Below are positions 1 through 37,374 of a stretch of DNA of 64,000 nucleotides, one piece after another. How positions within the stretch are numbered: the stretch's first letter is position 1; every line of letters begins with the position of its first letter. Made by a program: the position numbers and the translations under genes. The stretch is taken from positions 7,442,501 through 7,506,500 of the forward strand of contig OX387200.1 of assembly GCA_947561715.1 (NCBI GenBank), written 5' to 3'. This DNA is from Ascidia mentula. Its lineage: Eukaryota > Chordata > Ascidiacea > Phlebobranchia > Ascidiidae. The notes under the pieces are model-generated. The model was not told where the DNA came from, ran no database searches, and worked only from the letters and a program-made list of their open reading frames with translations.

Positions 1-326
1 ACTACAGGAGAAGTTTAACGTATGTAAATTCGTGAATAAAATTTTGCAAGTTAAGTTCAATAAATGTGATGTGCGCGACAACATTGTAAATCAATTTGGT
101 TGCATTTTCTGCGTTAATATTCAAGTTGCCGAATATGTAGTTGACAACAATATATCGATTGATGCGGGTTCACATCTTTGCAATTCCATTGTTTGTGTAG
201 GGATGACCAGTTTCCCAAGCACGCATAATTTGTAACCGTCGCCTCATTGTGTCTGCATTGCAAGTCAGTTAGAACAGTTTCTCCAAACAAATCTGGTGCA
301 CTGAAAATTGCGGATAGAAGTTCATT

Positions 327-14450: not shown

Positions 14451-14459
14451 CACAAACCC

Positions 14460-15270
14460 GATTTCGAGCCGAGGCCATGCTTGATCAACGTCTGGAACCA
14501 CAAAAACGCAGCTGCAATTCCCTGAAACTGCATTCAGAGTTTTGAACCAACTTGTCTCGAAGTAACCAAGCAAAACTCTTTGTATTTCTCGCAAATGCAC
14601 AACGATGGTAATTGTGTCATGTGCTAAAAGCTTTTTATGAATATGATAAACAACAAATGGAACTGTACAATAACAAAGATATCAGCTAAATTGCATTGCG
14701 ATAAGTTAATTTTCAGTAAAGTGTGAGTTTCAGTAATTTCCGTGTGTTGCGACGAGCATTAAGGTCATGGTCAAATGCAAATATACGCACGTCACGTCTT
14801 CAACCACATACACAACACGCCTCCCAAATTTGACATTTTTGCCCAACACAGTTTTGAGCCCAACTTTTCTGCAAGCAACCAAACAAAGCAGTGTACTTTG
14901 TAGATCCGTATCAATTGTTTTTCCCATCTTTTAATCGCAGCTGAAGGCTTTTTATCAACAATTTGAACAATAAATGAAATACCACGTTAGCAAATATACT
15001 CGACATTCAATTTTATCATGATGGCATTTTGTTTTGCCGTAACTGTTGATAAAAAGCGGTAAAAAAAACACATTTCACGTTGTTTAGGCAAAAACACGAT
15101 AAAACAGCATGAAATGCCGTTGCAAAATCAAAATCTTGCCGACAAGAGCACATTGTCAGCATTTTATTGAAACTTATTTTTTATTTTTGTGGTGATAACA
15201 ATTTCTTTGATATTGGATAGTGAAGTCGGCTTATATTTCAAGAAGTATCGGTTTTTTTTTTAGTTTAAGA
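14460..15270. repeat. Local repeat block, first copy
   Basis: Positions 14460-14720 (ggccatgcttgatcaacgtc ... aacaacaaatggaactgtacaataacaaag) recur at about 15370-15600 and again at 32590-32870. Positions 14740-15270 (ggtcatggtcaaatgcaa, tcgacattcaatttt, tttctttgatattgg) recur at about 16030-16350. The two blocks together form an imperfect tandem pair upstream of the giant peptide gene. No coding capacity is evident. Confidence 0.7.
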
Positions 15271-15369
15271 ATATGTTTTCGTTTCTGGTTCGCATTCAGC
15301 TCGCGTTCAGCTTGCGTTCAGATCACGGTCGACTGCCAACTTGAGCTGACAAACCTAAATACGCCTTGT

Positions 15370-16350
15370 CACGCGATCAGGTCAGGACTAAATGCACAAA
15401 CTTGTCTGGAAGTATCCAAGCAAAACTCTTTGTATTTGTCGCAAATGCACAAGGATGGTAATTGTGTCATATGGTTTTGCTCCACCGCTCAATCGAGTCT
15501 AAACGATTTTATTAAAATAAAAAACAATAAATAGAACTGTACAATAACAAAGATAACGGCAGAAATGCATTGGGATAAGTTAATTTTTTCGGTAAAAGCT
15601 TATTTGGCCAATAGGTTTATTATCATTAATTGACCTTTAATAACATTGTATTTACCACAGTAAGGGTAAATTTATTGCGGCTTCATTTCTATTGTTTGTT
15701 TTTTAGAATTGAATTAAACAAAACTATATGTCAACATTTATTAGGTTCCTTGTAAAAGACGATTCTGGATTTTCTTACTTGTTTTCCATTCCATTTGACG
15801 CGCGCGTGTAGGTCATGGTCAAATGCTGCATGACAACTAACCTGTTTTATTTAGCTGATTTTTTGAATGTTTACATGTAAATCTTTTGTTCTAAACACCC
15901 TTTGCGGTTTAACATAATGCATGCATACACATGTATTATTCCCAGGCGTTAAAAACAATATTCTTCATTTGCTGCAAGAAACTTTCAAGGGACAATAGTG
16001 TGAGTTTCAGTGAATTTGTATCGGTTTACTGCCGTGCGTTTCAACTGGCATTTTGGTCATGGTCAAATGCAAAAATACACACGTCACGTCTGCGACCACA
16101 CATACTACAACAAATAAAACAACACGTTAACAAAGATTCTCGACATTCAATTTCATCACAATGACATTTTGTTATGTTAAAATTGTTGATAAATAGCGAC
16201 AAAAAAAATACATTTCACGCTGTTTGTCAATGAAAGCACATAGTCAGCATTTTATTGAAACATATGTTTTATTTTAGTGGTAATTACAATTTCTTTGATA
16301 TTGGACAGTGCAGTCGGATTATGTTTCAAGCAGCATCAGGTTTCACCTTT
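15370..16350. repeat. Local repeat block, second copy
   Basis: This is the second member of the imperfect tandem pair starting at 14460. The first part matches 14460-14720 and 32590-32870; the last part (16030-16350) matches 14740-15270. The middle (15600-16030) is less similar and holds a partial extra ggtcatggtcaaatgc at about 15811. Confidence 0.65.
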
Positions 16351-17115
16351 TCATTTTATTTCCCTTTTTTTTTAGAAAAGTATTGAATCTTGAAGTTTTT
16401 TTTCACGTAATAGTTCTTGCAACCCCTTGTATTAATAAATTATGTACTTCCAGAAAGAAACTGATTTCGTACCGCAACGTATTCAAGTAATTTGTATCAT
16501 TCATCTACACTAAAGTTGATGGGAAATGAGTGTCGTTTTCCAGAGCAATATTATTTAAATAATCACAAATAAATAAGTCTTCTAATAGTCATGGTGATTG
16601 GTTTACGCATAGTTGTTCATTGTGAATAACATTAACAAATAAAACATAACACGTGATAATTTACTGTGTGGTGATATAGGACAGTACCAACTGAATTAAT
16701 TCGTTTACAAAGCTCGACTCTTTTATTCGCCTTTATGGGCTACTAGCCATGAGGGGTTGACTCTATTGGTGCGCATCAACACGCCTTATTGCATGTTTAC
16801 GCCACTGCCTTTTACCTCATTTCATGTTTAAAACTAGAGCCTAGAGTGTATTTCTTTCTCAGGCGAGATACCGAGGGGTTGTCGCGCCTCTCGCAGTTTT
16901 TAGTGTTAGTTTCTGTTGAAGAATTTTATGGTGTTTCATCGTCGATACCTTGTCTGGCAGTCTGATAATTGTTCAAAACGTTACACTGGATTTTTACTTT
17001 TTTATCAAGTTTCTTATTTTAAGATAGAATTTAACGATATCAATACAGCCACCGTTAGTATTTCTTTTTTTAATTATAGCTTGATCCTAACGCTAATTGC
17101 CGACCAATATTTTTT

Positions 17116-17125: not shown

Positions 17126-20100
17126 ATGGAAAGCAAATCCAATAAAGCCCTAATTGTGTTGCTGTTGTTTGGACTGTGGTTATGCTCCAATGGCCAATAT
17201 AGTAGTAAAATAAATCGCCAAAAACGGAGTGAAGAAAATGTTTTACCTCCCCTACCCGGATTCAACAGCAACATGGAAAATCGCCAAAAACGGAGTGAAG
17301 AAAATGTTTTACCTCCCCTACCCGGATTCAACAGCAACATGGAAAATCGCCAAAAACGGAGTGAAGAAAATGTTTTACCTCCCCTACCCGGATTCAACAG
17401 CAACATGGAAAATCGCCAAAAACGGAGTGAAGAACATATTTTACCTCCCCTACCCGGATTCAACAGCAACATGGAAAATCGCCAAAAACGGAGTGAAGAA
17501 CATGTTTTACCTCCCCAACCCGGATTCAACAGCAACATGGAAAATCGCCAAAAACGGAGTGAAGAAAATGTTTTACCTCCCCTACCCGGATTCAACAGCA
17601 ACATGGAAAATCGCCAAAAACGGAGTGAAGAACATGTTTTACCTCCCCTACCCGGATTCAACAGCAACATGGAAAATCGCCAAAAACGGAGTGAAGAACA
17701 TGTTTTACCTCCCCTACCCGGATTCAACAGCAACATGGAAAATCGCCAAAAACGGAGTGAAGAAAATGTTTTACCTCCCCTACCCGGATTCAACAGCAAC
17801 ATGGAAAATCGCCAAAAACGGAGTGAAGAAAATGTTTTACCTCCCCTACCCGGATTCAACAACAACATGGAAAATCGCCAAAAACGGAGTGAAGAAAATG
17901 TTTTACCTCCCCTACCCGGATTCAACAGCAACATGGAAAATCGCCAAAAACGGAGTGAAGAACATGTTTTACCTCCCCTACCCGGATTCAACAGCAACAT
18001 GGAAAATTGCCAAAAACGGAGTGAAGAACATGTTTTACCTCCCCTACCCGGATTCAACAACAACATGGAAAATCGCCAAAAACGGAGTGAAGAAAATGTT
18101 TTACCTCCCCTACCCGGATTCAAAAGCAACATGGAAAATCGCCAAAAACGGAGTGAAGAAAATGTTTTACCTCCCCTACCCGGATTCAACAGCAACATGG
18201 AAAATCGCCAAAAACGGAGTGAAGAAAATGTTTTACCTCCCCTACCCGGATTCAACAGCAACATGGAAAATCGCCAAAAACGGAGTGAAGAAAATGTTTT
18301 ACCTCCCCTACCCGGATTCAACAGCAACATGGAAAATCGCCAAAAACGGAGTGAAGAACATGTTTTACCTCCCCTACCCGGATTCAACAGCAACATGGAA
18401 AATCGCCAAAAACGGAGTGAAGAACATGTTTTACCTCCCCTACCCGGATTCAACAGCAACATGGAAAATCGCCAAAAACGGAGTGAAGAAAATGTTTTAC
18501 CTCCCCTACCCGGATTCAACAGCAACATGGAAAATCGCCAAAAACGGAGTGAAGAAAATGTTTTACCTCCCCTACCCGGATTCAACAACAACATGGAAAA
18601 TCGCCAAAAACGGAGTGAAGAAAATGTTTTACCTTCCCTACCCGGATTCAACAGCAACATGGAAAATCGCCAAAAACGGAGTGAAGAACATGTTTTACCT
18701 CCCCTACCCGGATTCAACAGCAACATGGAAAATTGCCAAAAACGGAGTGAAGAACATGTTTTACCTCCCCTACCCGGATTCAACAACAACATGGAAAATC
18801 GCCAAAAACGGAGTGAAGAAAATGTTTTACCTCCCCTACCCGGATTCAACAGCAACATGGAAAATCGCCAAAAACGGAGTGAAGAACATGTTTTACCTCC
18901 CCTACCCGGATTCAACAGCAACATGGAAAATCGCCAAAAACGGAGTGAAGAAAATGTTTTACCTCCCCTACCCGGATTCAACAGCAACATGGAAAATCGC
19001 CAAAAACGGAGTGAAGAAAATGTTTTACCTCCCCTACCCGGATTCAACAGCAACATGGAAAATCGCCAAAAACGGAGTGAAGAACATGTTTTACCTCCCC
19101 TACCCGGATTCAACAACAACATGGAAAATCGCCAAAAACGGAGTGAAGAACATGTTTTACCTCCCCTACCCAGATTCAACAACAACATGGAAAATCGCCA
19201 AAAACGGAGTGAAGAAAATGTTTTACCTCCCCTACCCGGATTCAACAGCAACATGGAAAATCGCCAAAAACGGAGTGAAGAACATGTTTTACCTCCCCTA
19301 CCCGGATTCAACAACAACATGGAAAATCGCCAAAAACGGAGTGAAGAAAATGTTTTACCTCCCCTACCCGGATTCAACAGCAACATGGAAAATCGCCAAA
19401 AACGGAGTGAAGAAAATGTTTTACCTCCCCTACCCGGATTCAACAGCAACATGGAAAATCGCCAAAAACGGAGTGAAGAACATGTTTTACCTCCCCTACC
19501 CGGATTCAACAACAACATGGAAAATCGCCAAAAACGGAGTGAAGAAAATGTTTTACCTCCCCTACCCGGATTCAACAACAGCATGGAAAATCGCCAAAAA
19601 CGGAGTGAAGAAAATGTTTTACCTCCCCTACCCGGATTCAACAGCAACATGGAAAATCGCCAAAAACGGAGTGAAGAAAATGTTTTACCTCCCCTACCCG
19701 GATTCAACAGCAACATGGAAAATCGCCAAAAACGGAGTGAAGAAAATGTTTTACCTCCCCTACCCGGATTCAACAGCAACATGGAAAATCGCCAAAAACG
19801 GAGTGAAGAAAATGTTTTACCTCCCCTACCCGGATTCAACAGCAACATGGAAAATCGCCAAAAACGGAGTGAAGAAAATGTTTTACCTCCCCTACCCGGA
19901 TTCAACAGCAACATGGAAAATCGCCAAAAACGGAGTGAAGAAAATGTTTTACCTCCCCTACCCGGATTCAACAACAACATGGAAAATCGCCAAAAACGGA
20001 GTGAAGAAAATGTTTTACCTCCCCTACCCGGATTCAACAGCAACATGGAAAATCGCCAAAAACGGAGTGAAGAAAATGTTTTACCTCCCCTACCCGGATT

Positions 20101-23100
20101 CAACAGCAACATGGAAAATCGCCAAAAACGGAGTGAAGAACATGTTTTACCTCCCCTACCCGGATTCAACAGCAACATGGAAAATCGCCAAAAACGGAGT
20201 GAAGAAAATGTTTTACCTCCCCTACCCGGATTCAACAGCAACATGGAAAATCGCCAAAAACGGAGTGAAGAACATGTTTTACCTCCCCTACCCGGATTCA
20301 ACAACAACATGGAAAATCGCCAAAAACGGAGTGAAGAACATGTTTTACCTCCCCTACCCAGATTCAACAACAACATGGAAAATCGCCAAAAACGGAGTGA
20401 AGAAAATGTTTTACCTCCCCTACCCGGATTCAACAGCAACATGGAAAATCGCCAAAAACGGAGTGAAGAACATGTTTTACCTCCCCTACCCGGATTCAAC
20501 AACAACATGGAAAATCGCCAAAAACGGAGTGAAGAAAATGTTTTACCTCCCCTACCCGGATTCAACAGCAACATGGAAAATCGCCAAAAACGGAGTGAAG
20601 AAAATGTTTTACCTCCCCTACCCGGATTCAACAGCAACATGGAAAATCGCCAAAAACGGAGTGAAGAACATGTTTTACCTCCCCTACCCGGATTCAACAA
20701 CAACATGGAAAATCGCCAAAAACGGAGTGAAGAAAATGTTTTACCTCCCCTACCCGGATTCAACAGCAACATGGAAAATCGCCCAAAACGGAGTGAAGAA
20801 AATGTTTTACATCCCCTACCCGGATTCAACAGCAACATGGAAAATCGCCCAAAACGGAGTGAAGAAAATGTTTTACCTCCCCTACCCGGATTCAACAACA
20901 ACATGGAAAATTGCCAAAAACGGAGTGAAGAAAATGTTTTACATCCCCTACCCGGATTCAACAACAACATGGAAAATCGCCAAAAACGGAGTGAAGAACA
21001 TGTTTTACCTCCCCTACCCGGATTCAACAACAACATGGAAAATCGCCAAAAACGGAGTGAAGAAAATGTTTTACCTCTCCTACCCGGATTCAACAGCAAC
21101 ATGGAAAATCGCCAAAAACGGAGTGAAGAAAATGTTTTACCTCCCCTACCCGGATTCAACAACAACATGGAAAATTGCCAAAAACGGAGTGAAGAAAATG
21201 TTTTACCTCCCCTACCCGGATTCAACAGCAACATGGAAAATCGCCAAAAACGGAGTGAAGAAAATGTTTTACCTCCCCTACCCGGATTCAACAACAACAT
21301 GGAAAATTGCCAAAAACGGAGTGAAGAAAATGTTTTACCTCCCCTACCCGGATTCAACAACAACATGGAAAATTGCCAAAAACGGAGTGAAGAAAATGTT
21401 TTACCTCCCCTACCCGGATTCAACAACAACATGGAAAATTGCCAAAAACGGAGTGAAGAAAATGTTTTACCTCCCCTACCCGGATTCAACAGCAACATGG
21501 AAAATTGCCAAAAACGGAGTGAAGAAAATGTTTTACCTCCCCTACCCGGATTCAACAACAACATGGAAAATTGCCAAAAACGGAGTGAAGAAAATGTTTT
21601 ACCTCCCCTACCCGGATTCAACAACAACATGGAAAATTGCCAAAAACGGAGTGAAGAAAATGTTTTACCTCCCCTACCCGGATTCAACAGCAACATGGAA
21701 AATTGCCAAAAACGGAGTGAAGAAAATGTTTTACCTCCCCTACCCGGATTCAACAACAACATGGAAAATTGCCAAAAACGGAGTGAAGAAAATGTTTTAC
21801 CTCCCCTACCCGGATTCAACAACAACATGGAAAATTGCCAAAAACGGAGTGAAGAAAATGTTTTACCTCCCCTACCCGGATTCAACAACAACATGGAAAA
21901 TTGCCAAAAACGGAGTGAAGAAAATGTTTTACCTCCCCTACCCGGATTCAACAGCAACATGGAAAATTGCCAAAAACGGAGTGAAGAAAATGTTTTACCT
22001 CCCCTACCCGGATTCAACAACAACATGGAAAATCGCCAAAAACGGAGTGAAGAACATGTTTTACCTCCCCTACCCGGATTCAACAACAACATGGAAAATC
22101 GCCAAAAACGGAGTGAAGAAAATGTTTTACCTCTCCTACCCGGATTCAACAGCAACATGGAAAATCGCCAAAAACGGAGTGAAGAAAATGTTTTACCTCC
22201 CCTACCCGGATTCAACAACAACATGGAAAATCGCCAAAAACGGAGTGAAGAACATGTTTTACCTCCCCTACCCGGATTCAACAACAACATGGAAAATCGC
22301 CAAAAACGGAGTGAAGAAAATGTTTTACCTCCCCTACCCGGATTCAACAACAACATGGAAAATCGCCAAAAACGGAGTGAAGAACATGTTTTTCATCCCC
22401 TACCCGGATTCAACAGCAACATGGAAAATCGCCAAAAACGGAGTGAAGAAAATGTTTTACCTCCCCTACCCGGATTCAACAACAACATGGAAAATCGCCA
22501 AAAACGGAGTGAAGAAAATGTTTTACCTCCCCTACCCGGATTCAACAACAACATGGAAAATTGCCAAAAACGGAGTGAAGAAAATGTTTTACCTCCCCTA
22601 CCCGGATTCAACAGCAACATGGAAAATCGCCAAAAACGGAGTGAAGAAAATGTTTTACCTCCCCTACCCGGATTCAACAACAACATGGAAAATTGCCAAA
22701 AACGGAGTGAAGAAAATGTTTTACCTCCCCTACCCGGATTCAACAACAACATGGAAAATTGCCAAAAACGGAGTGAAGAAAATGTTTTACCTCCCCTACC
22801 CGGATTCAACAGCAACATGGAAAATTGCCAAAAACGGAGTGAAGAAAATGTTTTACCTCCCCTACCCGGATTCAACAACAACATGGAAAATTGCCAAAAA
22901 CGGAGTGAAGAAAATGTTTTACCTCCCCTACCCGGATTCAACAACAACATGGAAAATTGCCAAAAACGGAGTGAAGAAAATGTTTTACCTCCCCTACCCG
23001 GATTCAACAGCAACATGGAAAATTGCCAAAAACGGAGTGAAGAAAATGTTTTACCTCCCCTACCCGGATTCAACAACAACATGGAAAATTGCCAAAAACG

Positions 23101-26100
23101 GAGTGAAGAAAATGTTTTACCTCCCCTACCCGGATTCAACAACAACATGGAAAATTGCCAAAAACGGAGTGAAGAAAATGTTTTACCTCCCCTACCCGGA
23201 TTCAACAACAACATGGAAAATTGCCAAAAACGGAGTGAAGAAAATGTTTTACCTCCCCTACCCGGATTCAACAGCAACATGGAAAATTGCCAAAAACGGA
23301 GTGAAGAAAATGTTTTACCTCCCCTACCCGGATTCAACAACAACATGGAAAATCGCCAAAAACGGAGTGAAGAACATGTTTTACCTCCCCTACCCGGATT
23401 CAACAACAACATGGAAAATCGCCAAAAACGGAGTGAAGAACATGTTTTACCTCCCCTACCCGGATTCAACAACAACATGGAAAATCGCCAAAAACGGAGT
23501 GAAGAAAATGTTTTACCTCCCCTACCCGGATTCAACAACAACATGGAAAATCGCCAAAAACGGAGTGAAGAACATGTTTTTCATCCCCTACCCGGATTCA
23601 ACAGCAACATGGAAAATCGCCAAAAACGGAGTGAAGAAAATGTTTTACCTCCCCTACCCGGATTCAACAACAACATGGAAAATCGCCAAAAACGGAGTGA
23701 AGAACATGTTTTACCTCCCCTACCCGGATTCAACAGCAACATGGAAAATCGCCAAAAACGGAGTGAAGAAAATGTTTTACCTCCCCTACCCGGATTCAAC
23801 AGCAACATGGAAAATCGCCAAAAACGGAGTGAAGAACATGTTTTACCTCCCCTACCCGGATTCAACAACAACATGGAAAATCGCCAAAAACGGAGTGAAG
23901 AACATGTTTTACCTCCCCTACCCAGATTCAACAACAACATGGAAAATCGCCAAAAACGGAGTGAAGAAAATGTTTTACCTCCCCTACCCGGATTCAACAG
24001 CAACATGGAAAATCGCCAAAAACGGAGTGAAGAACATGTTTTACCTCCCCTACCCGGATTCAACAACAACATGGAAAATCGCCAAAAACGGAGTGAAGAA
24101 AATGTTTTACCTCCCCTACCCGGATTCAACAGCAACATGGAAAATCGCCAAAAACGGAGTGAAGAACATGTTTTACCTCCCCTACCCGGATTCAACAGCA
24201 ACATGGAAAATCGCCAAAAACGGAGTGAAGAAAATGTTTTACCTCCCCTACCCGGATTCAACAGCAACATGGAAAATCGCCAAAAACGGAGTGAAGAACA
24301 TGTTTTACCTCCCCTACCCGGATTCAACAACAACATGGAAAATCGCCAAAAACGGAGTGAAGAACATGTTTTACCTCCCCTACCCAGATTCAACAACAAC
24401 ATGGAAAATCGCCAAAAACGGAGTGAAGAAAATGTTTTACCTCCCCTACCCGGATTCAACAGCAACATGGAAAATCGCCAAAAACGGAGTGAAGAACATG
24501 TTTTACCTCCCCTACCCGGATTCAACAACAACATGGAAAATCGCCAAAAACGGAGTGAAGAAAATGTTTTACCTCCCCTACCCGGATTCAACAGCAACAT
24601 GGAAAATCGCCAAAAACGGAGTGAAGAAAATGTTTTACCTCCCCTACCCGGATTCAACAGCAACATGGAAAATCGCCAAAAACGGAGTGAAGAACATGTT
24701 TTACCTCCCCTACCCGGATTCAACAACAACATGGAAAATCGCCAAAAACGGAGTGAAGAAAATGTTTTACCTCCCCTACCCGGATTCAACAGCAACATGG
24801 AAAATCGCCCAAAACGGAGTGAAGAAAATGTTTTACATCCCCTACCCGGATTCAACAGCAACATGGAAAATCGCCCAAAACGGAGTGAAGAAAATGTTTT
24901 ACCTCCCCTACCCGGATTCAACAACAACATGGAAAATTGCCAAAAACGGAGTGAAGAAAATGTTTTACATCCCCTACCCGGATTCAACAACAACATGGAA
25001 AATCGCCAAAAACGGAGTGAAGAACATGTTTTACCTCCCCTACCCGGATTCAACAACAACATGGAAAATCGCCAAAAACGGAGTGAAGAAAATGTTTTAC
25101 CTCTCCTACCCGGATTCAACAGCAACATGGAAAATCGCCAAAAACGGAGTGAAGAAAATGTTTTACCTCCCCTACCCGGATTCAACAACAACATGGAAAA
25201 TTGCCAAAAACGGAGTGAAGAAAATGTTTTACCTCCCCTACCCGGATTCAACAGCAACATGGAAAATCGCCAAAAACGGAGTGAAGAAAATGTTTTACCT
25301 CCCCTACCCGGATTCAACAACAACATGGAAAATTGCCAAAAACGGAGTGAAGAAAATGTTTTACCTCCCCTACCCGGATTCAACAACAACATGGAAAATT
25401 GCCAAAAACGGAGTGAAGAAAATGTTTTACCTCCCCTACCCGGATTCAACAACAACATGGAAAATTGCCAAAAACGGAGTGAAGAAAATGTTTTACCTCC
25501 CCTACCCGGATTCAACAGCAACATGGAAAATTGCCAAAAACGGAGTGAAGAAAATGTTTTACCTCCCCTACCCGGATTCAACAACAACATGGAAAATTGC
25601 CAAAAACGGAGTGAAGAAAATGTTTTACCTCCCCTACCCGGATTCAACAACAACATGGAAAATTGCCAAAAACGGAGTGAAGAAAATGTTTTACCTCCCC
25701 TACCCGGATTCAACAGCAACATGGAAAATTGCCAAAAACGGAGTGAAGAAAATGTTTTACCTCCCCTACCCGGATTCAACAACAACATGGAAAATTGCCA
25801 AAAACGGAGTGAAGAAAATGTTTTACCTCCCCTACCCGGATTCAACAACAACATGGAAAATTGCCAAAAACGGAGTGAAGAAAATGTTTTACCTCCCCTA
25901 CCCGGATTCAACAACAACATGGAAAATTGCCAAAAACGGAGTGAAGAAAATGTTTTACCTCCCCTACCCGGATTCAACAGCAACATGGAAAATTGCCAAA
26001 AACGGAGTGAAGAAAATGTTTTACCTCCCCTACCCGGATTCAACAACAACATGGAAAATCGCCAAAAACGGAGTGAAGAACATGTTTTACCTCCCCTACC

Positions 26101-29100
26101 CGGATTCAACAACAACATGGAAAATCGCCAAAAACGGAGTGAAGAAAATGTTTTACCTCTCCTACCCGGATTCAACAGCAACATGGAAAATCGCCAAAAA
26201 CGGAGTGAAGAAAATGTTTTACCTCCCCTACCCGGATTCAACAACAACATGGAAAATCGCCAAAAACGGAGTGAAGAACATGTTTTACCTCCCCTACCCG
26301 GATTCAACAACAACATGGAAAATCGCCAAAAACGGAGTGAAGAAAATGTTTTACCTCCCCTACCCGGATTCAACAACAACATGGAAAATCGCCAAAAACG
26401 GAGTGAAGAACATGTTTTTCATCCCCTACCCGGATTCAACAGCAACATGGAAAATCGCCAAAAACGGAGTGAAGAAAATGTTTTACCTCCCCTACCCGGA
26501 TTCAACAACAACATGGAAAATCGCCAAAAACGGAGTGAAGAAAATGTTTTACCTCCCCTACCCGGATTCAACAACAACATGGAAAATTGCCAAAAACGGA
26601 GTGAAGAAAATGTTTTACCTCCCCTACCCGGATTCAACAGCAACATGGAAAATCGCCAAAAACGGAGTGAAGAAAATGTTTTACCTCCCCTACCCGGATT
26701 CAACAACAACATGGAAAATTGCCAAAAACGGAGTGAAGAAAATGTTTTACCTCCCCTACCCGGATTCAACAACAACATGGAAAATTGCCAAAAACGGAGT
26801 GAAGAAAATGTTTTACCTCCCCTACCCGGATTCAACAGCAACATGGAAAATTGCCAAAAACGGAGTGAAGAAAATGTTTTACCTCCCCTACCCGGATTCA
26901 ACAACAACATGGAAAATTGCCAAAAACGGAGTGAAGAAAATGTTTTACCTCCCCTACCCGGATTCAACAACAACATGGAAAATTGCCAAAAACGGAGTGA
27001 AGAAAATGTTTTACCTCCCCTACCCGGATTCAACAGCAACATGGAAAATTGCCAAAAACGGAGTGAAGAAAATGTTTTACCTCCCCTACCCGGATTCAAC
27101 AACAACATGGAAAATTGCCAAAAACGGAGTGAAGAAAATGTTTTACCTCCCCTACCCGGATTCAACAACAACATGGAAAATTGCCAAAAACGGAGTGAAG
27201 AAAATGTTTTACCTCCCCTACCCGGATTCAACAACAACATGGAAAATTGCCAAAAACGGAGTGAAGAAAATGTTTTACCTCCCCTACCCGGATTCAACAG
27301 CAACATGGAAAATTGCCAAAAACGGAGTGAAGAAAATGTTTTACCTCCCCTACCCGGATTCAACAACAACATGGAAAATCGCCAAAAACGGAGTGAAGAA
27401 CATGTTTTACCTCCCCTACCCGGATTCAACAACAACATGGAAAATCGCCAAAAACGGAGTGAAGAACATGTTTTACCTCCCCTACCCGGATTCAACAACA
27501 ACATGGAAAATCGCCAAAAACGGAGTGAAGAAAATGTTTTACCTCCCCTACCCGGATTCAACAACAACATGGAAAATCGCCAAAAACGGAGTGAAGAACA
27601 TGTTTTTCATCCCCTACCCGGATTCAACAGCAACATGGAAAATCGCCAAAAACGGAGTGAAGAAAATGTTTTACCTCCCCTACCCGGATTCAACAACAAC
27701 ATGGAAAATCGCCAAAAACGGAGTGAAGAACATGTTTTACCTCCCCTACCCGGATTCAACAGCAACATGGAAAATCGCCAAAAACGGAGTGAAGAAAATG
27801 TTTTACCTCCCCTACCCGGATTCAACAGCAACATGGAAAATCGCCAAAAACGGAGTGAAGAACATGTTTTACCTCCCCTACCCGGATTCAACAACAACAT
27901 GGAAAATCGCCAAAAACGGAGTGAAGAACATGTTTTACCTCCCCTACCCAGATTCAACAACAACATGGAAAATCGCCAAAAACGGAGTGAAGAAAATGTT
28001 TTACCTCCCCTACCCGGATTCAACAGCAACATGGAAAATCGCCAAAAACGGAGTGAAGAACATGTTTTACCTCCCCTACCCGGATTCAACAACAACATGG
28101 AAAATCGCCAAAAACGGAGTGAAGAAAATGTTTTACCTCCCCTACCCGGATTCAACAGCAACATGGAAAATCGCCAAAAACGGAGTGAAGAAAATGTTTT
28201 ACCTCCCCTACCCGGATTCAACAGCAACATGGAAAATCGCCAAAAACGGAGTGAAGAAAATGTTTTACCTCCCCTACCCGGATTCAACAACAACATGGAA
28301 AATCGCCAAAAACGGAGTGAAGAAAATGTTTTACCTCCCCTACCCGGATTCAACAGCAACATGGAAAATCGCCCAAAACGGAGTGAAGAAAATGTTTTAC
28401 ATCCCCTACCCGGATTCAACAGCAACATGGAAAATCGCCCAAAACGGAGTGAAGAAAATGTTTTACCTCCCCTACCCGGATTCAACAACAACATGGAAAA
28501 TTGCCAAAAACGGAGTGAAGAAAATGTTTTACATCCCCTACCCGGATTCAACAACAACATGGAAAATCGCCAAAAACGGAGTGAAGAACATGTTTTACCT
28601 CCCCTACCCGGATTCAACAACAACATGGAAAATCGCCAAAAACGGAGTGAAGAAAATGTTTTACCTCTCCTACCCGGATTCAACAGCAACATGGAAAATC
28701 GCCAAAAACGGAGTGAAGAAAATGTTTTACCTCCCCTACCCGGATTCAACAACAACATGGAAAATTGCCAAAAACGGAGTGAAGAAAATGTTTTACCTCC
28801 CCTACCCGGATTCAACAGCAACATGGAAAATCGCCAAAAACGGAGTGAAGAAAATGTTTTACCTCCCCTACCCGGATTCAACAACAACATGGAAAATTGC
28901 CAAAAACGGAGTGAAGAAAATGTTTTACCTCCCCTACCCGGATTCAACAACAACATGGAAAATTGCCAAAAACGGAGTGAAGAAAATGTTTTACCTCCCC
29001 TACCCGGATTCAACAACAACATGGAAAATTGCCAAAAACGGAGTGAAGAAAATGTTTTACCTCCCCTACCCGGATTCAACAGCAACATGGAAAATTGCCA

Positions 29101-32100
29101 AAAACGGAGTGAAGAAAATGTTTTACCTCCCCTACCCGGATTCAACAACAACATGGAAAATTGCCAAAAACGGAGTGAAGAAAATGTTTTACCTCCCCTA
29201 CCCGGATTCAACAACAACATGGAAAATTGCCAAAAACGGAGTGAAGAAAATGTTTTACCTCCCCTACCCGGATTCAACAGCAACATGGAAAATTGCCAAA
29301 AACGGAGTGAAGAAAATGTTTTACCTCCCCTACCCGGATTCAACAACAACATGGAAAATTGCCAAAAACGGAGTGAAGAAAATGTTTTACCTCCCCTACC
29401 CGGATTCAACAACAACATGGAAAATTGCCAAAAACGGAGTGAAGAAAATGTTTTACCTCCCCTACCCGGATTCAACAACAACATGGAAAATTGCCAAAAA
29501 CGGAGTGAAGAAAATGTTTTACCTCCCCTACCCGGATTCAACAGCAACATGGAAAATTGCCAAAAACGGAGTGAAGAAAATGTTTTACCTCCCCTACCCG
29601 GATTCAACAACAACATGGAAAATCGCCAAAAACGGAGTGAAGAACATGTTTTACCTCCCCTACCCGGATTCAACAACAACATGGAAAATCGCCAAAAACG
29701 GAGTGAAGAAAATGTTTTACCTCTCCTACCCGGATTCAACAGCAACATGGAAAATCGCCAAAAACGGAGTGAAGAAAATGTTTTACCTCCCCTACCCGGA
29801 TTCAACAACAACATGGAAAATCGCCAAAAACGGAGTGAAGAACATGTTTTACCTCCCCTACCCGGATTCAACAACAACATGGAAAATCGCCAAAAACGGA
29901 GTGAAGAAAATGTTTTACCTCCCCTACCCGGATTCAACAACAACATGGAAAATCGCCAAAAACGGAGTGAAGAACATGTTTTTCATCCCCTACCCGGATT
30001 CAACAGCAACATGGAAAATCGCCAAAAACGGAGTGAAGAAAATGTTTTACCTCCCCTACCCGGATTCAACAACAACATGGAAAATCGCCAAAAACGGAGT
30101 GAAGAAAATGTTTTACCTCCCCTACCCGGATTCAACAACAACATGGAAAATTGCCAAAAACGGAGTGAAGAAAATGTTTTACCTCCCCTACCCGGATTCA
30201 ACAGCAACATGGAAAATCGCCAAAAACGGAGTGAAGAAAATGTTTTACCTCCCCTACCCGGATTCAACAACAACATGGAAAATTGCCAAAAACGGAGTGA
30301 AGAAAATGTTTTACCTCCCCTACCCGGATTCAACAACAACATGGAAAATTGCCAAAAACGGAGTGAAGAAAATGTTTTACCTCCCCTACCCGGATTCAAC
30401 AGCAACATGGAAAATTGCCAAAAACGGAGTGAAGAAAATGTTTTACCTCCCCTACCCGGATTCAACAACAACATGGAAAATTGCCAAAAACGGAGTGAAG
30501 AAAATGTTTTACCTCCCCTACCCGGATTCAACAACAACATGGAAAATTGCCAAAAACGGAGTGAAGAAAATGTTTTACCTCCCCTACCCGGATTCAACAG
30601 CAACATGGAAAATTGCCAAAAACGGAGTGAAGAAAATGTTTTACCTCCCCTACCCGGATTCAACAACAACATGGAAAATTGCCAAAAACGGAGTGAAGAA
30701 AATGTTTTACCTCCCCTACCCGGATTCAACAACAACATGGAAAATTGCCAAAAACGGAGTGAAGAAAATGTTTTACCTCCCCTACCCGGATTCAACAACA
30801 ACATGGAAAATTGCCAAAAACGGAGTGAAGAAAATGTTTTACCTCCCCTACCCGGATTCAACAGCAACATGGAAAATTGCCAAAAACGGAGTGAAGAAAA
30901 TGTTTTACCTCCCCTACCCGGATTCAACAACAACATGGAAAATCGCCAAAAACGGAGTGAAGAACATGTTTTACCTCCCCTACCCGGATTCAACAACAAC
31001 ATGGAAAATCGCCAAAAACGGAGTGAAGAAAATGTTTTACCTCCCCTACCCGGATTCAACAACAACATGGAAAATCGCCAAAAACGGAGTGAAGAACATG
31101 TTTTACCTCCCCTACCCGGATTCAACAACAACATGGAAAATCGCCAAAAACGGAGTGAAGAAAATGTTTTACCTCCCCTACCCGGATTCAACAACAACAT
31201 GGAAAATCGCCAAAAACGGAGTGAAGAACATGTTTTTCATCCCCTACCCGGATTCAACAGCAACATGGAAAATCGCCAAAAACGGAGTGAAGAAAATGTT
31301 TTACCTCCCCTACCCGGATTCAACAACAACATGGAAAATCGCCAAAAACGGAGTGAAGAAAATGTTTTACCTCCCCTACCCGGATTCAACAACAACATGG
31401 AAAATTGCCAAAAACGGAGTGAAGAAAATGTTTTACCTCCCCTACCCGGATTCAACAGCAACATGGAAAATCGCCAAAAACGGAGTGAAGAAAATGTTTT
31501 ACCTCCCCTACCCGGATTCAACAACAACATGGAAAATCGCCAAAAACGGAGTGAAGAAAATGTTTTACCTCCCCTACCCGGATTCAACAGCAACATGGAA
31601 AATCGCCCAAAACGGAGTGAAGAAAATGTTTTACATCCCCTACCCGGATTCAACAGCAACATGGAAAATCGCCAAAAACGGAGTGAAGAAAATGTTTTAC
31701 CTCCCCTACCCGGATTCAACAACAACATGGAAAATCGCCAAAAACGGAGTGAAGAAATTGTTTCACCTCCCCTACCCGGATTCAACAGCAACATGGAAAA
31801 TCGCCAAAAACGGAGTGAAGAAAATGTTTTACCTCCCCTACCCGGATTCAACAGCAACATGGAAAATCGCCAAAAACGGAGTGAAGAACATGTTTCACCT
31901 CCCCTACCCGGATTCAACAGGAACATGGAAAATCGCCAAAAACGGAGTGAAGAAAATGTTTTACCTCCCCTACCCGGATTCAACAGCAACATGGAAAATC
32001 GCCAAAAACGGAGTGAAGAAAATGTTTTACCTCCCCTACCCGGATTCAACAGCAACATGGAAAATCGCCAAAAACGGAGTGAAGAAAATGTTTTACCTCC

Positions 32101-32170
32101 CCTACCCGGATTCAACAGCAACATGGAAAATCGCCAAAAACGGAGTGAAGAAAATGACGCACCCCTGTAG
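17126..32170 (+). CDS. Giant repetitive secreted peptide precursor (5014 aa, 226 repeats of 22 aa)
   Basis: Single-exon frame. Residues 1-23 form a signal peptide (KSNK, then hydrophobic ALIVLLLFGLWLC, likely cleavage after SNG before Gln24). A short leader QYSSKIN is followed by 226 units of exactly 66 bp from 17216 to 32131, with no indel, then a partial unit and the tail SEENDAPL before TAG. Each unit is RQKR (furin/prohormone-convertase type site) plus an acidic, proline-rich 18-mer, SEENVLPPLPGFNSNMEN. Variable positions are N/H at residue 8, S/N at 18 and R/C at 1; rarer ones give RPKR, LPRF, VFHP and LPLLP. Processing at KR would release hundreds of near-identical peptides. I recognise no known peptide family. 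The frame is open upstream to 16916, but the signal peptide favours 17126. Alternatives are a structural or adhesive protein, or an untranslated satellite. Two other plus/minus frames are also open. Confidence 0.7.
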   Translation: MESKSNKALIVLLLFGLWLCSNGQYSSKINRQKRSEENVLPPLPGFNSNMENRQKRSEENVLPPLPGFNSNMENRQKRSEENVLPPLPGFNSNMENRQKRSEEHILPPLPGFNSNMENRQKRSEEHVLPPQPGFNSNMENRQKRSEENVLPPLPGFNSNMENRQKRSEEHVLPPLPGFNSNMENRQKRSEEHVLPPLPGFNSNMENRQKRSEENVLPPLPGFNSNMENRQKRSEENVLPPLPGFNNNMENRQKRSEENVLPPLPGFNSNMENRQKRSEEHVLPPLPGFNSNMENCQKRSEEHVLPPLPGFNNNMENRQKRSEENVLPPLPGFKSNMENRQKRSEENVLPPLPGFNSNMENRQKRSEENVLPPLPGFNSNMENRQKRSEENVLPPLPGFNSNMENRQKRSEEHVLPPLPGFNSNMENRQKRSEEHVLPPLPGFNSNMENRQKRSEENVLPPLPGFNSNMENRQKRSEENVLPPLPGFNNNMENRQKRSEENVLPSLPGFNSNMENRQKRSEEHVLPPLPGFNSNMENCQKRSEEHVLPPLPGFNNNMENRQKRSEENVLPPLPGFNSNMENRQKRSEEHVLPPLPGFNSNMENRQKRSEENVLPPLPGFNSNMENRQKRSEENVLPPLPGFNSNMENRQKRSEEHVLPPLPGFNNNMENRQKRSEEHVLPPLPRFNNNMENRQKRSEENVLPPLPGFNSNMENRQKRSEEHVLPPLPGFNNNMENRQKRSEENVLPPLPGFNSNMENRQKRSEENVLPPLPGFNSNMENRQKRSEEHVLPPLPGFNNNMENRQKRSEENVLPPLPGFNNSMENRQKRSEENVLPPLPGFNSNMENRQKRSEENVLPPLPGFNSNMENRQKRSEENVLPPLPGFNSNMENRQKRSEENVLPPLPGFNSNMENRQKRSEENVLPPLPGFNSNMENRQKRSEENVLPPLPGFNNNMENRQKRSEENVLPPLPGFNSNMENRQKRSEENVLPPLPGFNSNMENRQKRSEEHVLPPLPGFNSNMENRQKRSEENVLPPLPGFNSNMENRQKRSEEHVLPPLPGFNNNMENRQKRSEEHVLPPLPRFNNNMENRQKRSEENVLPPLPGFNSNMENRQKRSEEHVLPPLPGFNNNMENRQKRSEENVLPPLPGFNSNMENRQKRSEENVLPPLPGFNSNMENRQKRSEEHVLPPLPGFNNNMENRQKRSEENVLPPLPGFNSNMENRPKRSEENVLHPLPGFNSNMENRPKRSEENVLPPLPGFNNNMENCQKRSEENVLHPLPGFNNNMENRQKRSEEHVLPPLPGFNNNMENRQKRSEENVLPLLPGFNSNMENRQKRSEENVLPPLPGFNNNMENCQKRSEENVLPPLPGFNSNMENRQKRSEENVLPPLPGFNNNMENCQKRSEENVLPPLPGFNNNMENCQKRSEENVLPPLPGFNNNMENCQKRSEENVLPPLPGFNSNMENCQKRSEENVLPPLPGFNNNMENCQKRSEENVLPPLPGFNNNMENCQKRSEENVLPPLPGFNSNMENCQKRSEENVLPPLPGFNNNMENCQKRSEENVLPPLPGFNNNMENCQKRSEENVLPPLPGFNNNMENCQKRSEENVLPPLPGFNSNMENCQKRSEENVLPPLPGFNNNMENRQKRSEEHVLPPLPGFNNNMENRQKRSEENVLPLLPGFNSNMENRQKRSEENVLPPLPGFNNNMENRQKRSEEHVLPPLPGFNNNMENRQKRSEENVLPPLPGFNNNMENRQKRSEEHVFHPLPGFNSNMENRQKRSEENVLPPLPGFNNNMENRQKRSEENVLPPLPGFNNNMENCQKRSEENVLPPLPGFNSNMENRQKRSEENVLPPLPGFNNNMENCQKRSEENVLPPLPGFNNNMENCQKRSEENVLPPLPGFNSNMENCQKRSEENVLPPLPGFNNNMENCQKRSEENVLPPLPGFNNNMENCQKRSEENVLPPLPGFNSNMENCQKRSEENVLPPLPGFNNNMENCQKRSEENVLPPLPGFNNNMENCQKRSEENVLPPLPGFNNNMENCQKRSEENVLPPLPGFNSNMENCQKRSEENVLPPLPGFNNNMENRQKRSEEHVLPPLPGFNNNMENRQKRSEEHVLPPLPGFNNNMENRQKRSEENVLPPLPGFNNNMENRQKRSEEHVFHPLPGFNSNMENRQKRSEENVLPPLPGFNNNMENRQKRSEEHVLPPLPGFNSNMENRQKRSEENVLPPLPGFNSNMENRQKRSEEHVLPPLPGFNNNMENRQKRSEEHVLPPLPRFNNNMENRQKRSEENVLPPLPGFNSNMENRQKRSEEHVLPPLPGFNNNMENRQKRSEENVLPPLPGFNSNMENRQKRSEEHVLPPLPGFNSNMENRQKRSEENVLPPLPGFNSNMENRQKRSEEHVLPPLPGFNNNMENRQKRSEEHVLPPLPRFNNNMENRQKRSEENVLPPLPGFNSNMENRQKRSEEHVLPPLPGFNNNMENRQKRSEENVLPPLPGFNSNMENRQKRSEENVLPPLPGFNSNMENRQKRSEEHVLPPLPGFNNNMENRQKRSEENVLPPLPGFNSNMENRPKRSEENVLHPLPGFNSNMENRPKRSEENVLPPLPGFNNNMENCQKRSEENVLHPLPGFNNNMENRQKRSEEHVLPPLPGFNNNMENRQKRSEENVLPLLPGFNSNMENRQKRSEENVLPPLPGFNNNMENCQKRSEENVLPPLPGFNSNMENRQKRSEENVLPPLPGFNNNMENCQKRSEENVLPPLPGFNNNMENCQKRSEENVLPPLPGFNNNMENCQKRSEENVLPPLPGFNSNMENCQKRSEENVLPPLPGFNNNMENCQKRSEENVLPPLPGFNNNMENCQKRSEENVLPPLPGFNSNMENCQKRSEENVLPPLPGFNNNMENCQKRSEENVLPPLPGFNNNMENCQKRSEENVLPPLPGFNNNMENCQKRSEENVLPPLPGFNSNMENCQKRSEENVLPPLPGFNNNMENRQKRSEEHVLPPLPGFNNNMENRQKRSEENVLPLLPGFNSNMENRQKRSEENVLPPLPGFNNNMENRQKRSEEHVLPPLPGFNNNMENRQKRSEENVLPPLPGFNNNMENRQKRSEEHVFHPLPGFNSNMENRQKRSEENVLPPLPGFNNNMENRQKRSEENVLPPLPGFNNNMENCQKRSEENVLPPLPGFNSNMENRQKRSEENVLPPLPGFNNNMENCQKRSEENVLPPLPGFNNNMENCQKRSEENVLPPLPGFNSNMENCQKRSEENVLPPLPGFNNNMENCQKRSEENVLPPLPGFNNNMENCQKRSEENVLPPLPGFNSNMENCQKRSEENVLPPLPGFNNNMENCQKRSEENVLPPLPGFNNNMENCQKRSEENVLPPLPGFNNNMENCQKRSEENVLPPLPGFNSNMENCQKRSEENVLPPLPGFNNNMENRQKRSEEHVLPPLPGFNNNMENRQKRSEEHVLPPLPGFNNNMENRQKRSEENVLPPLPGFNNNMENRQKRSEEHVFHPLPGFNSNMENRQKRSEENVLPPLPGFNNNMENRQKRSEEHVLPPLPGFNSNMENRQKRSEENVLPPLPGFNSNMENRQKRSEEHVLPPLPGFNNNMENRQKRSEEHVLPPLPRFNNNMENRQKRSEENVLPPLPGFNSNMENRQKRSEEHVLPPLPGFNNNMENRQKRSEENVLPPLPGFNSNMENRQKRSEENVLPPLPGFNSNMENRQKRSEENVLPPLPGFNNNMENRQKRSEENVLPPLPGFNSNMENRPKRSEENVLHPLPGFNSNMENRPKRSEENVLPPLPGFNNNMENCQKRSEENVLHPLPGFNNNMENRQKRSEEHVLPPLPGFNNNMENRQKRSEENVLPLLPGFNSNMENRQKRSEENVLPPLPGFNNNMENCQKRSEENVLPPLPGFNSNMENRQKRSEENVLPPLPGFNNNMENCQKRSEENVLPPLPGFNNNMENCQKRSEENVLPPLPGFNNNMENCQKRSEENVLPPLPGFNSNMENCQKRSEENVLPPLPGFNNNMENCQKRSEENVLPPLPGFNNNMENCQKRSEENVLPPLPGFNSNMENCQKRSEENVLPPLPGFNNNMENCQKRSEENVLPPLPGFNNNMENCQKRSEENVLPPLPGFNNNMENCQKRSEENVLPPLPGFNSNMENCQKRSEENVLPPLPGFNNNMENRQKRSEEHVLPPLPGFNNNMENRQKRSEENVLPLLPGFNSNMENRQKRSEENVLPPLPGFNNNMENRQKRSEEHVLPPLPGFNNNMENRQKRSEENVLPPLPGFNNNMENRQKRSEEHVFHPLPGFNSNMENRQKRSEENVLPPLPGFNNNMENRQKRSEENVLPPLPGFNNNMENCQKRSEENVLPPLPGFNSNMENRQKRSEENVLPPLPGFNNNMENCQKRSEENVLPPLPGFNNNMENCQKRSEENVLPPLPGFNSNMENCQKRSEENVLPPLPGFNNNMENCQKRSEENVLPPLPGFNNNMENCQKRSEENVLPPLPGFNSNMENCQKRSEENVLPPLPGFNNNMENCQKRSEENVLPPLPGFNNNMENCQKRSEENVLPPLPGFNNNMENCQKRSEENVLPPLPGFNSNMENCQKRSEENVLPPLPGFNNNMENRQKRSEEHVLPPLPGFNNNMENRQKRSEENVLPPLPGFNNNMENRQKRSEEHVLPPLPGFNNNMENRQKRSEENVLPPLPGFNNNMENRQKRSEEHVFHPLPGFNSNMENRQKRSEENVLPPLPGFNNNMENRQKRSEENVLPPLPGFNNNMENCQKRSEENVLPPLPGFNSNMENRQKRSEENVLPPLPGFNNNMENRQKRSEENVLPPLPGFNSNMENRPKRSEENVLHPLPGFNSNMENRQKRSEENVLPPLPGFNNNMENRQKRSEEIVSPPLPGFNSNMENRQKRSEENVLPPLPGFNSNMENRQKRSEEHVSPPLPGFNRNMENRQKRSEENVLPPLPGFNSNMENRQKRSEENVLPPLPGFNSNMENRQKRSEENVLPPLPGFNSNMENRQKRSEENDAPL
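17216..32131. repeat. 66-bp minisatellite-like coding array, 226 units
   Basis: The start of the first unit (cgc at 17216) and of the last partial unit (32132) differ by 14916 bases, which is exactly 226 x 66. Variant units recur in fixed order. The VFHP unit lies near 22390, 23578, 26416, 27604, 29980 and 31234. The RPKR pair lies near 20780, 24806 and 28370, with a related single at 31605. The LPRF unit lies near 19171, 20360, 23924, 24386 and 27950. Spacings of 1188 (18 units), 4026 (61 units) and 3564 (54 units) show nested higher-order duplications. Confidence 0.95.
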
Positions 32171-32356: not shown

Positions 32357-32362
32357 AATAAA
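32357..32362 (+). promoter_or_regulatory. Polyadenylation signal of the giant peptide gene
   Basis: AATAAA 187 bases after the stop codon, at a plausible distance for a short 3' UTR. It supports transcription of the plus strand through the array, but AT-rich sequence makes chance matches common. Confidence 0.45.
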
Positions 32363-34339: not shown

Positions 34340-37300
34340 ATGCCGAGATATGGTAGGTATATTCAATGTTTATACTTGCCAGAGTAGGAACAGTTTTTAC
34401 TAACTTTTGGTGTCAGTACTGTTTGTTTTCTGTGAAACCAATAGCATTAGCAAAACAATACCGTTGTTTTTACTGTCAACACTTCACATGTTATACGTTC
34501 TCTTCATAAGATTTTACACCAGTCCAAATTCTGCGGAAAACTTCGGATGGTATTTGGAAGTTGGACGAACATGCGTTGAAGAACGTCTTGCGCTGCTCGT
34601 GGAATGAAGCAACGGCAATAATTTCCATTTGCGGCGATAAAAGAAAAGGAAAATCATTTCTTCTGAACCTGTTAATGCACAACCTGAGCCGGGTGGGTTA
34701 AAACTATTGATAACCAACCATATATGTAACAAATGGTCATCAGCTGTATTACACATATGTTGCTTCCTAGTCAATTTGTCATGTTCCGCAGACTGTCAAG
34801 GACAAACTGTTATCCACGTTTTTCGGTGGCGAAAAACTTTCTAACACTTTTAAGTGGAGAGGTGGAACATCACGGGATACAGAGGGAATTTGGATTACGG
34901 ACCAACCTATCCCATTGACAACAAAAGGAGGAAACGTAAGCAGATACTTTTGCCTTTCTTAGCTTCAGCCAAGTATCAATCAACGCATACTGTTTTGTAG
35001 TTTGTTCATTTCAAACAGCAAACTGGTGTGATTTCCACACATAAAGGCATAACTATAGTTAAGTTATTTAGTTACATCTACAATTCGAAGCCCATTAGTA
35101 GAATGAAACACATAAATTCACATTTCCGATTAGAGCTGAAGTGCACAGGGTTGACCAAGCATGGCTTTATGTGCCTTGCTTCCACTTGTCGAGCAACAGT
35201 GACATTGAGTTAGTTATATATACAAAGCCACTTTGACTCACCTATCTGTTTTACAAAAAAATGGTTTACTAAAAATTCCACGTATTTTAGTGTATTGCCT
35301 AAACCATAAAAAATATGTTTATTTCTGCTTTATAGTGCTATTAAACATTTGTGTTTTATTTTGAAGGTACACGTTTACATAGTTGACACCCAAGGAATGT
35401 TTGACAACACAACAACAAAACACGAATGCACCCAGATTTTTACTCTTTCCACTTTGATGAGTTCCATCGTAGTGTTTAACCTTCTGCGGCAACTTCAATC
35501 AAACGACATAGAACAGCTTTCAGTAGGTGTAAAACTTATATTTGGAATCGTCCGTACAACAATAGCTATTGGTCTGAGATGCGCCAAGTGAAAAATGGCG
35601 GTATTACCATTAAGAAACAATCACAATTCTGTGGGTTACATTTGTCGCTATTCCCAAAGCTTCTCTAAATCTATTCCATGTGTAACTACTTTGGTGAAAT
35701 GATAAATATGGTACTATGTTTTATAGTTTTGGATGCAAAGTGCTCAGTGGGTTGGCAACGAGAAATCAAAGCCAGTTCTTCAGGTTCCTTTGTTTTTCCT
35801 TGTAAAATGTGTTTTTGCGTACCTAATCAACCGCGTTTTGTACGACAGAATTTGTTTTTTCTAATTCGCGACTTCCCACACGAAAATCTCGGTTACGGTC
35901 TCAAAGGCGGAGAAGCGTATTTAAAACAACAAATCGAAGAGAGCAAGGAAAACGGAGAGATAACCGCCAATCTGGAAGAATTGAAGAAAGTTTTTCAACG
36001 CGTTTCAGCGTACGCCATGCCCTTCCCAGGAGACAAGGTGGCGAAAAGAGGGCACAATGAAAAACCTCTAAAGTTAAAAGGTGCGTACTTATTTCAATGC
36101 ACTGCACATACATTGGTTTCACATGTTTATTGCTATACTTATAAGCTACATGCCTTCTAGATATTGCATCGCAATTTCTGCAATATGCAAATGAGTTCTT
36201 TCAACACCTGAAAAAAGACATTGGGCCACTGACTCTAAACAAAAATCCCATGAATGGGAGCGATTTATATACTTATATCGTGAAATGCTCCGAACTCGTA
36301 TTAACTGGTGAAATGCCGAAAGCAAAGGACCTTTCAGACGTAAGCCCTTTGTCTAATAAGCAATTTTGTTCGTAATACGATCCATGAATCCGATAGTTTG
36401 TTACAGCTTGTTGCCGACCACTGGATGCGCGACTTAGTAGAGAAGTGCGTTGAAAAATATCAAGACAAAATCAAGGTAAGTGGTACATTTATGGGACTGT
36501 TAACGACCTGTTAAGCGTTGTAATACTTTTACAGAATCTGGAAAAGGGTAGCAGACAAAAGGAAACACTGACAGCAGAAAAGGATGCTGTGATGAAGTTT
36601 TTTGATGACTCCGATAAGTTCGGGCGGAAAAATGTGATACAAGATGCTCGAAATGTATTACAGGTGGAGGTTGACAGGATGTGTGAAGCTGAGCTATCTC
36701 ATGATGACAAACTGAAAGATGCTCGCAGCTTAGAAGAGAAACTCATGGAAGCCAAAAACAACCTTAAGAAAAAATACGTGGAGCTAGCTGAGAAGCACAA
36801 AGCGGAGGCCCATGCGGCACATGGAGATAAAGAAAAAGCCGATCACGACAATAAAACTTCACTCGAAGAAAAAAGTGCCAAATCGCCAGAAGCCAAATCG
36901 TTACTTCCGGAAATGCCGAGCGGACATACCCCAAAAAGACATCCAACTACTTCTATGCTGGATCCTGACATTGAAAAGCCTCGGGGGCAACAAGAGAATG
37001 GAAAGTCACGGGTACCAAAAGATAGAAAGCAACGGGTTCCAGAGGATGGAAAGCAACGGGGACAAGAAGATGGAAATCCACGGGTACCAGAGGATGGAAA
37101 GCCACGGGGACAACAAGAGGATGGAAAGCCACGGGGACAACAAGAAGAGGGAAAGCCACGGGTGCCAGAGGATGGAAAGCCACGGGTGCCAGAGGATGGA
37201 AAGCCACGGGGACAACAAGAAGATGGAAAGGCACGGATACAAAAGAATGGAGTGCCTAAGGTACAAGAAAATGAAATGCTCAAAGCACAAGAAGATGGAA

Positions 37301-37374
37301 AGCATCAGGTTCATGAGGGTGGAATGCAACAGAATCGAAAGGACGGAGAGCAACAAATGCAACAGGACCTTTAG
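34340..37374 (+). CDS. Atlastin/GBP-like large GTPase with repeat tail, gene 1 (9 exons, 623 aa)
   Basis: Dynamin-superfamily GTPase related to atlastins and guanylate-binding proteins. Exons: 34340-34352 (13-nt, tentative), 34511-34692, 34792-34935, 35367-35522, 35727-35783, 35849-36080, 36161-36339, 36407-36475, 36535-37374; phases all join. Motifs: P-loop GDKRKGKS (residues 46-53; atlastins carry the same RKGKS core), switch region WRGGTSRDTEG (87-97), G3 DTQG (120-123), and RD of LIRDF (191-192). After a helical segment the C-terminus (about 493-623) is a hydrophilic tail of 8-9 residue repeats such as PRGQQEDGK and PRVPEDGK. The two membrane helices of atlastins are missing, so it is probably soluble or peripheral. 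It is convergent with gene 2 at 39908. The role is unknown; membrane remodelling or a GBP-like defence role are guesses from the family. Confidence 0.8.
36979..37371 (+). repeat. Coding 24-27 bp repeats in the tail of GTPase gene 1
   Basis: About sixteen degenerate copies of a unit like 'ccacggggacaacaagaagatggaaag', alternating between GQQEDGK and VPEDGK forms. Because units are multiples of three, several other frames on both strands are open here as a by-product. Confidence 0.85.

Follow-up and report, generated by a model that had tools for sequence, protein, structure and literature searches.

A gene on chromosome 4 of the solitary ascidian Ascidia mentula very probably encodes a real secreted multi-peptide precursor, in which a signal peptide is followed by 226 complete peptide units in tandem. 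The gene lies within the stretch of DNA that was analysed here (64,000 nucleotides; C67:7442501-7506500), hereafter called the window. In keeping with a tunicate genome, a glycosyl hydrolase 6 domain, known among animals from tunicates, exceeded its cut-off at 2 places, one of them interrupted by an in-frame stop, and in 0 of 14 control genomes. No larger member of the precursor's gene family was found, which makes the gene the extreme of that family and not a lone oddity; the relatives had been missed by an earlier, sequence-only reading of the locus. Our main reading, to which we assign a probability of roughly 0.62, takes two parts jointly and in a loose sense: a giant secreted polyprotein cut by convertases, and an effector or defence role for its products.

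Architecture of the precursor gene

The coding sequence occupies positions 17126-32170 of the plus strand, from an ATG at 17126 through 5014 codons to a TAG stop at 32168-32170. Its first part (17126-17194) is a putative signal peptide, MESKSNKALIVLLLFGLWLCSNG, recognised by eye as a hydrophobic N-terminal leader that is kept across the relatives; the cleavage point was likewise set by eye, with the -3/-1 rule, a guide for placing signal-peptide cleavage. In the translation, a seven-residue linker, QYSSKIN (17195-17215), leads into 226 complete units of 66 bp or 22 amino acids with the consensus RQKR-SEENVLPPLPGFNNNMEN (17216-32131). These are followed, at 32132-32170, by a partial last unit, RQKRSEEN (RQKRSEENDAPL in the window frame), the tail DAPL, and the stop. 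Tandem Repeats Finder placed the array at 17212-32156, with a period of 66, 226.4 copies, 97% matches, and 0% indels. Repeat finding and the open 5014-residue frame agree on what had been described from the letters alone: 226 in-register units of equal length, with no indel and no stop across any of them.

At the DNA level the window array comprises 20 different unit types, and its complete units, once translated, also fall into 20 different peptides. The first position of the unit is R in 151 of the 226 units and C in the other 75, the second is Q in 219 units and P in the remaining 7, and the third and fourth (K and R) are invariant, so the earlier description of units opening with RQKR, CQKR, or RPKR was accurate. 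The design is one of near-identical tandem peptides with dibasic sites between them, KR being present in 226/226 units. Units opening with CQKR are spread unevenly: 2 fall in units 1-43, 72 in units 44-209, and 1 in units 210-226.

Higher-order duplication was observed within the array. Units 44-105 (20054-24145, plus strand) are identical in DNA to units 105-166 (24080-28171), and units 54-94 and 115-155, on the same strand, are identical to units 169-209 (28304-31009). Expressed as offsets, 62 consecutive units recur exactly at 61 units (4026 bp), and 41 recur again at 54 units. These exact copies show that the array expanded as blocks of units, each of about 4 kb, were duplicated, provided that the assembly is correct. 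Such duplications would be recent unless another process keeps the blocks equal. The window copy number of 226 is assembly-based, and exact self-copies are a structure that can be mis-assembled.

A possible polyadenylation signal (AATAAA, 32357-32362, plus strand) lies 186 bp 3' of the stop. On the 5' side, a block at 16733-16976 (plus strand) is common to the chromosome 3 relatives: blastn matched it to the flanks of several of them at 70-86% identity, the 70% matches being longer, and an alignment of 10 upstream regions revealed that the spacing between block and ATG varies among genes. The block could be either a promoter or a 5' leader, and the sequence after it might contain a 5' intron or else a trans-splice site. 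The gene had been described as having a single exon; this held for the coding part, and the 5' leader falls outside the statement. Farther upstream, at 13661-16718, several stretches are 65-93% identical to flanks of chromosome 3 relatives and represent either shared flanks or dispersed repeats.

Other features were observed downstream in the window. An exon at 35669-36160 (plus strand) matched the guanylate-binding-protein N-terminal domain (E 5.7e-5), and a frame at 36454-37374 (plus strand) carries a repeat of the KPRGQ/KPRVPEDG type (36975-37251) and a Cornifin match just below the cut-off. Three exons are sodium:solute symporter-like, one with a Pfam match over the cut-off (54695-55099, plus strand), one with a weak Pfam match (56575-57084, plus strand), and one on the minus strand (52006-52323) that resembles the first by eye.

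The gene family and constraint among its members

A DNA search with the unit located arrays on chromosome 3 (C52) at about 80% identity, and protein searches with the precursor start identified at least 54 related starts in the genome, 53 of them on chromosome 3. The first protein search returned 22 places, of which the 16 outside a cluster at 16 Mb are the window gene and 15 places on chromosome 3; at least 38 further matches lie in the cluster itself (chromosome 3, 16.17-16.55 Mb) and start no more than two residues from the precursor start. The family count is the sum of these 16 starts and 38 cluster matches, and is a lower bound. Among the matches listed, the window gene is the sole family member off chromosome 3.

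The relatives that were read have a common signal peptide, and their units mostly end in RQKR. The longer ones encode 1622 residues with 69 KR sites, 739 with 28, 389 with 13, and 329 with 14; the shortest relative having units encodes 98 residues with 3 dibasic sites. Most relatives have units of 22 or 21 residues, and one has units of 26. For eight genes a unit consensus was drawn up: SEENVLPPLPGFNNNMENRQKR in the window gene, and SKENAPPANVGFNSYMENRQKR, DSDSVRPPLLGFNDNAEDRQKR, NLGNLPPPPGFTSDVENRQKR, DLDGVIPPPGFNDNAEDRQKR, DSDMVAPPTGFNDNAENRQKR, DSDMVGPPSGFKDNAENRQKR, and SLEHHSDLQDLPGGRFNGDVENRQKR in the others. In-frame stops occur within relatives 15573644, 17796824, and 17859208, and relatives 17861911, 15577176, and 16528850 are short frames without units. 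At two places on chromosome 3 the frames of relatives stop and unit-like sequence continues beyond (C52:17842678-17843985, L009; C52:17874434-17876653, L034 and L035).

As far as searches of Pfam, solved structures, viral contigs, and the literature reach, this chordate gene family is unnamed, as the failure to match the window gene to any known family had suggested. Searched with the first 291 residues of the precursor, Pfam returned no family at E values of 0.1 or below; solved structures gave a single match for the first 117 residues (E 0.047), which was taken as chance. Viral contigs yielded five pattern matches, none of them confirmed. The peptide strings tried in full-text literature retrieved no paper, and the portions available of papers on ascidian or tunicate repeat precursors held no recognisable match to the window family.

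The genes compared were hand-chosen, from a list of 20 plus the window gene and relative 17842678. Four with short frames were dropped, leaving 18 for the frame test; 11 arrays of regular units were used for the charge and within-array tests and 8 for the between-gene tests. Relatives 17826926, 17868728, and 16402115 were seen and left out of the chosen set.

Over the window array a second plus-strand frame is open too, along with several long minus-strand frames, so the openness of the array alone is not proof of coding. Nor does the frame-0 count alone prove anything, since the way in which the genes were excised kept stops out of frame 0; the informative part of the frame test is that no alternative frame was open in all 18 genes. 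Coding in another frame was considered and rejected: in the repeat parts, three of the five other frames held stops in 18/18 genes, and the remaining two were open in 1/18 and 6/18. The second plus-strand frame, open over the window array, held stops in all 17 relatives.

Both the signal region and the unit showed constraint between genes. The first 28 codons gave dN/dS values of 0.14-0.34 in 9 of 9 hand-chosen pairs of the window gene with a relative, two of the nine relatives being identical there and at least two (17861911 and 15577176) looking broken. In the 16-Mb cluster, the first 480 bases of nine genes gave values of 0.23-0.97 in 36 pairs, the three highest (0.71-0.97) coming from pairs of low dS. 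For the unit, residues were numbered backward from the cleavage end, residues 1-12 corresponding to GFN...ENRQKR. Over these residues pN (0.00-0.21) was lower than pS (0.15-1.05) in all 28 pairs of the 8 genes, with the constancy of the last three residues partly built in by the cutting of units at a QKR-like pattern. Two repeats were free of this built-in constancy: with the three unit-cutting residues dropped, residues 4-12 had pN below pS in 27 of 28 pairs of the 8 genes, and in a fixed-step count over 11 arrays of common ancestry, KR stood at 405 of the 408 unit ends (227/227 in the window and 178/181 elsewhere).

The constraint on signal region and unit argues for a selected coding family and not a satellite. 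The proposal of a coding gene with a secretion leader is thereby upheld, the unit design and dibasic sites also being kept in diverged relatives. A non-coding satellite was rejected because both the signal region and the C-terminal unit half are constrained between genes. Together with a decayed gene left with an open frame by chance, we consider it highly improbable, although a 66-bp unit is divisible by 3, a second plus-strand frame is open over the array as well, and some relatives are broken. It is also the case that all 16 variant types within the window array change the amino acid (3.8 silent types expected; P 0.007 for zero silent), so purifying selection is not visible there.

Constant and variable halves of the peptide unit

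Comparison of units across the family showed a constant C-terminal half (GFN...ENRQ plus the cleavage site) and a variable, proline-rich N-terminal half. Between genes, pN of residues 13-19 was above that of residues 1-12 in 28/28 pairs. Within residues 13-19, pN exceeded pS in 13 of the 28 pairs, equalled it in 1, and was lower in 14, with the residues aligned from the cleavage end across unequal unit lengths, which inflates between-gene differences; among pairs with equal unit length, pN exceeded pS in 3 of 9. These counts indicate a half that is relaxed between genes and not clearly positively selected.

Within the 11 arrays, residues 13-19, limits picked after the charge and unit survey had been seen, held 68 changing and 11 silent variant types (54.4 changing expected; P 0.00025). 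The corresponding figures were 50:9 in 8 less related arrays (40.4 changing expected; P 0.003) and 59:11 when the window array was left out (48.4 changing expected; P 0.003). Residues 1-12 gave a neutral ratio (33:13, with 35.1 changing expected), and QKR gave 6:5 (8.2 changing expected; P 0.10). Set against the whole unit, changing types were crowded in residues 13-19 (68 vs. 30.1 expected) and sparse in residues 1-12 (33 vs. 55.1). One variant of array L065, a stop if taken singly, was excluded from these tests, which took all 226 units of the window array; in the charge and unit survey the search pattern had returned 215. The data fit, with moderate statistical force, a unit of which one half stays constant and the other diversifies. 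The amino-acid changes in 16/16 variant types of the window array also count in favour of the main reading.

Constant and changing halves, gene clusters, and the homogenisation of arrays would also suit reproductive peptides, borne by egg or sperm and acting in the recognition of species or self. The precursors of sea-urchin sperm-activating peptides have a comparable plan. The locus itself holds no pointer to gametes, however, and we regard a reproductive role as distinctly unlikely.

Candidate processing and role of the peptides

The architecture suggests the following path. The signal peptide would route the 5014-residue chain to the secretory pathway; proprotein convertases would cut after every (R/C)QKR; and a carboxypeptidase would then trim KR. 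The yield per chain would be about 226 acidic peptides, linear and non-amidated and each some 20 residues long, most of them SEENVLPPLPGFN(N/S)NMEN(R/C)Q. The genome has 7 exon-level matches to a convertase P-domain, and 1 of 14 control genomes also gave a match. Arg at P4, as in the strict furin site (R-X-K/R-R), is present at 151/226 sites in the window and at 174/181 unit ends in the 10 other arrays. Judged by motif, the CQKR sites (75/226) are poorer furin sites, and all keep KR; the C at P4 weakens the furin motif and adds a cysteine that might pair.

The loss of P4 Arg from 75 of the 226 window units would be easier to accommodate in a structural or matrix repeat protein of the tunic, mucus, or egg coat, one that works uncut and in which QKR is merely part of the repeat. 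The product as one huge low-complexity chain, the absence of a Pfam match for its first 291 residues, and the lack of significance of the QKR constraint within arrays also fit such a protein. It is nevertheless an unlikely reading: KR is kept at 405/408 unit ends despite divergent units of 21 to 26 residues, and relatives with just 3-7 dibasic sites would be odd for a fibre protein.

Known precursors had been said to carry far fewer copies than the window gene, and the published figures found bear this out. In the available parts of the two papers concerned, the animal multi-copy maximum is 50 copies, for hexacorals and ceriantharians only (PMC7523074), and fungal KEX2-processed repeat proteins (KEPs) contain 3-129 repeats, the second largest having 38 (PMC6339444). 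The assembly-based 226 copies of the window gene lie above both the animal and the fungal figure. As described in that part of PMC6339444, KEPs are similarly secreted precursors of tandem near-identical peptides with KR-type sites; the window gene differs in being animal and in having 226 units, and sequence kinship is no part of the likeness. Drosophila Baramicin A, from the available part of PMC9246212, is alike in that furin sites free tandem-repeat peptides from a 'protein-based operon' and in having paralogs with losses, but it carries three IM10-like repeats plus other domains and is immune-inducible, and no sequence kinship was seen.

The plan of signal peptide, repeats, and dibasic sites is also that of multi-copy neuropeptide precursors, and in cnidarian preprohormones, too, dibasic sites separate numerous copies of a single peptide (PMC7523074, part available). 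Most of those peptides carry G ahead of the site and are amidated, and the cnidarian set tops out at 50 copies, whereas the window gene is without an amidation signal and belongs to a large family. The residue before its dibasic site is Q in 219/226 units and P in 7/226; Gly is missing there, which implies no amidation. At least 54 mostly clustered starts and a changing core are, moreover, unlike a receptor-bound hormone, and we consider a neuropeptide or hormone precursor very unlikely.

The mean peptide charge was -2.3 in the window (215-226 units), in keeping with the earlier account of acidic peptides, and ranged from -3.3 to +0.4 in 10 other arrays; the net positive charge of a mature cationic antimicrobial peptide was absent. 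The acidic charge counts against an effector role and is unlike classic cationic antimicrobial peptides. Honeybee apidaecin precursors are similar in their proline-rich tandem peptides and in a copy number that varies among genes, but they have far fewer copies and cationic products, whereas the window peptides are acidic.

We tentatively favour an effector or defence role over a hormonal, reproductive, or structural one, at somewhat less than even odds, because of the amplification of dose, the clustering of intact and broken genes, and the variable half. The gene clusters mix intact and broken copies, as is usual in effector families. Amplification may serve dose, with effector peptides perhaps released in bulk, and their targets might lie outside the body or in another organism, for example microbes, predators, or fouling partners. 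A more far-reaching proposal, which we consider unlikely, is that the family forms a tunicate peptide repertoire for defence or for recognition of self, mate, or microbe. Its starts, at least 54, would include intact ones that each make several to many copies of peptides in which the C-terminal half stays constant while the N-terminal half diversifies, a repertoire produced through repeat gain and loss; the window gene would stand at the extreme of dose amplification, with ENCQ units that might give disulfide-linked dimers.

If borne out, the gene would have the highest number of cleavable peptide copies per precursor among the figures found in the available parts of published papers, and it would open a chordate gene family with a conserved half and a variable half.
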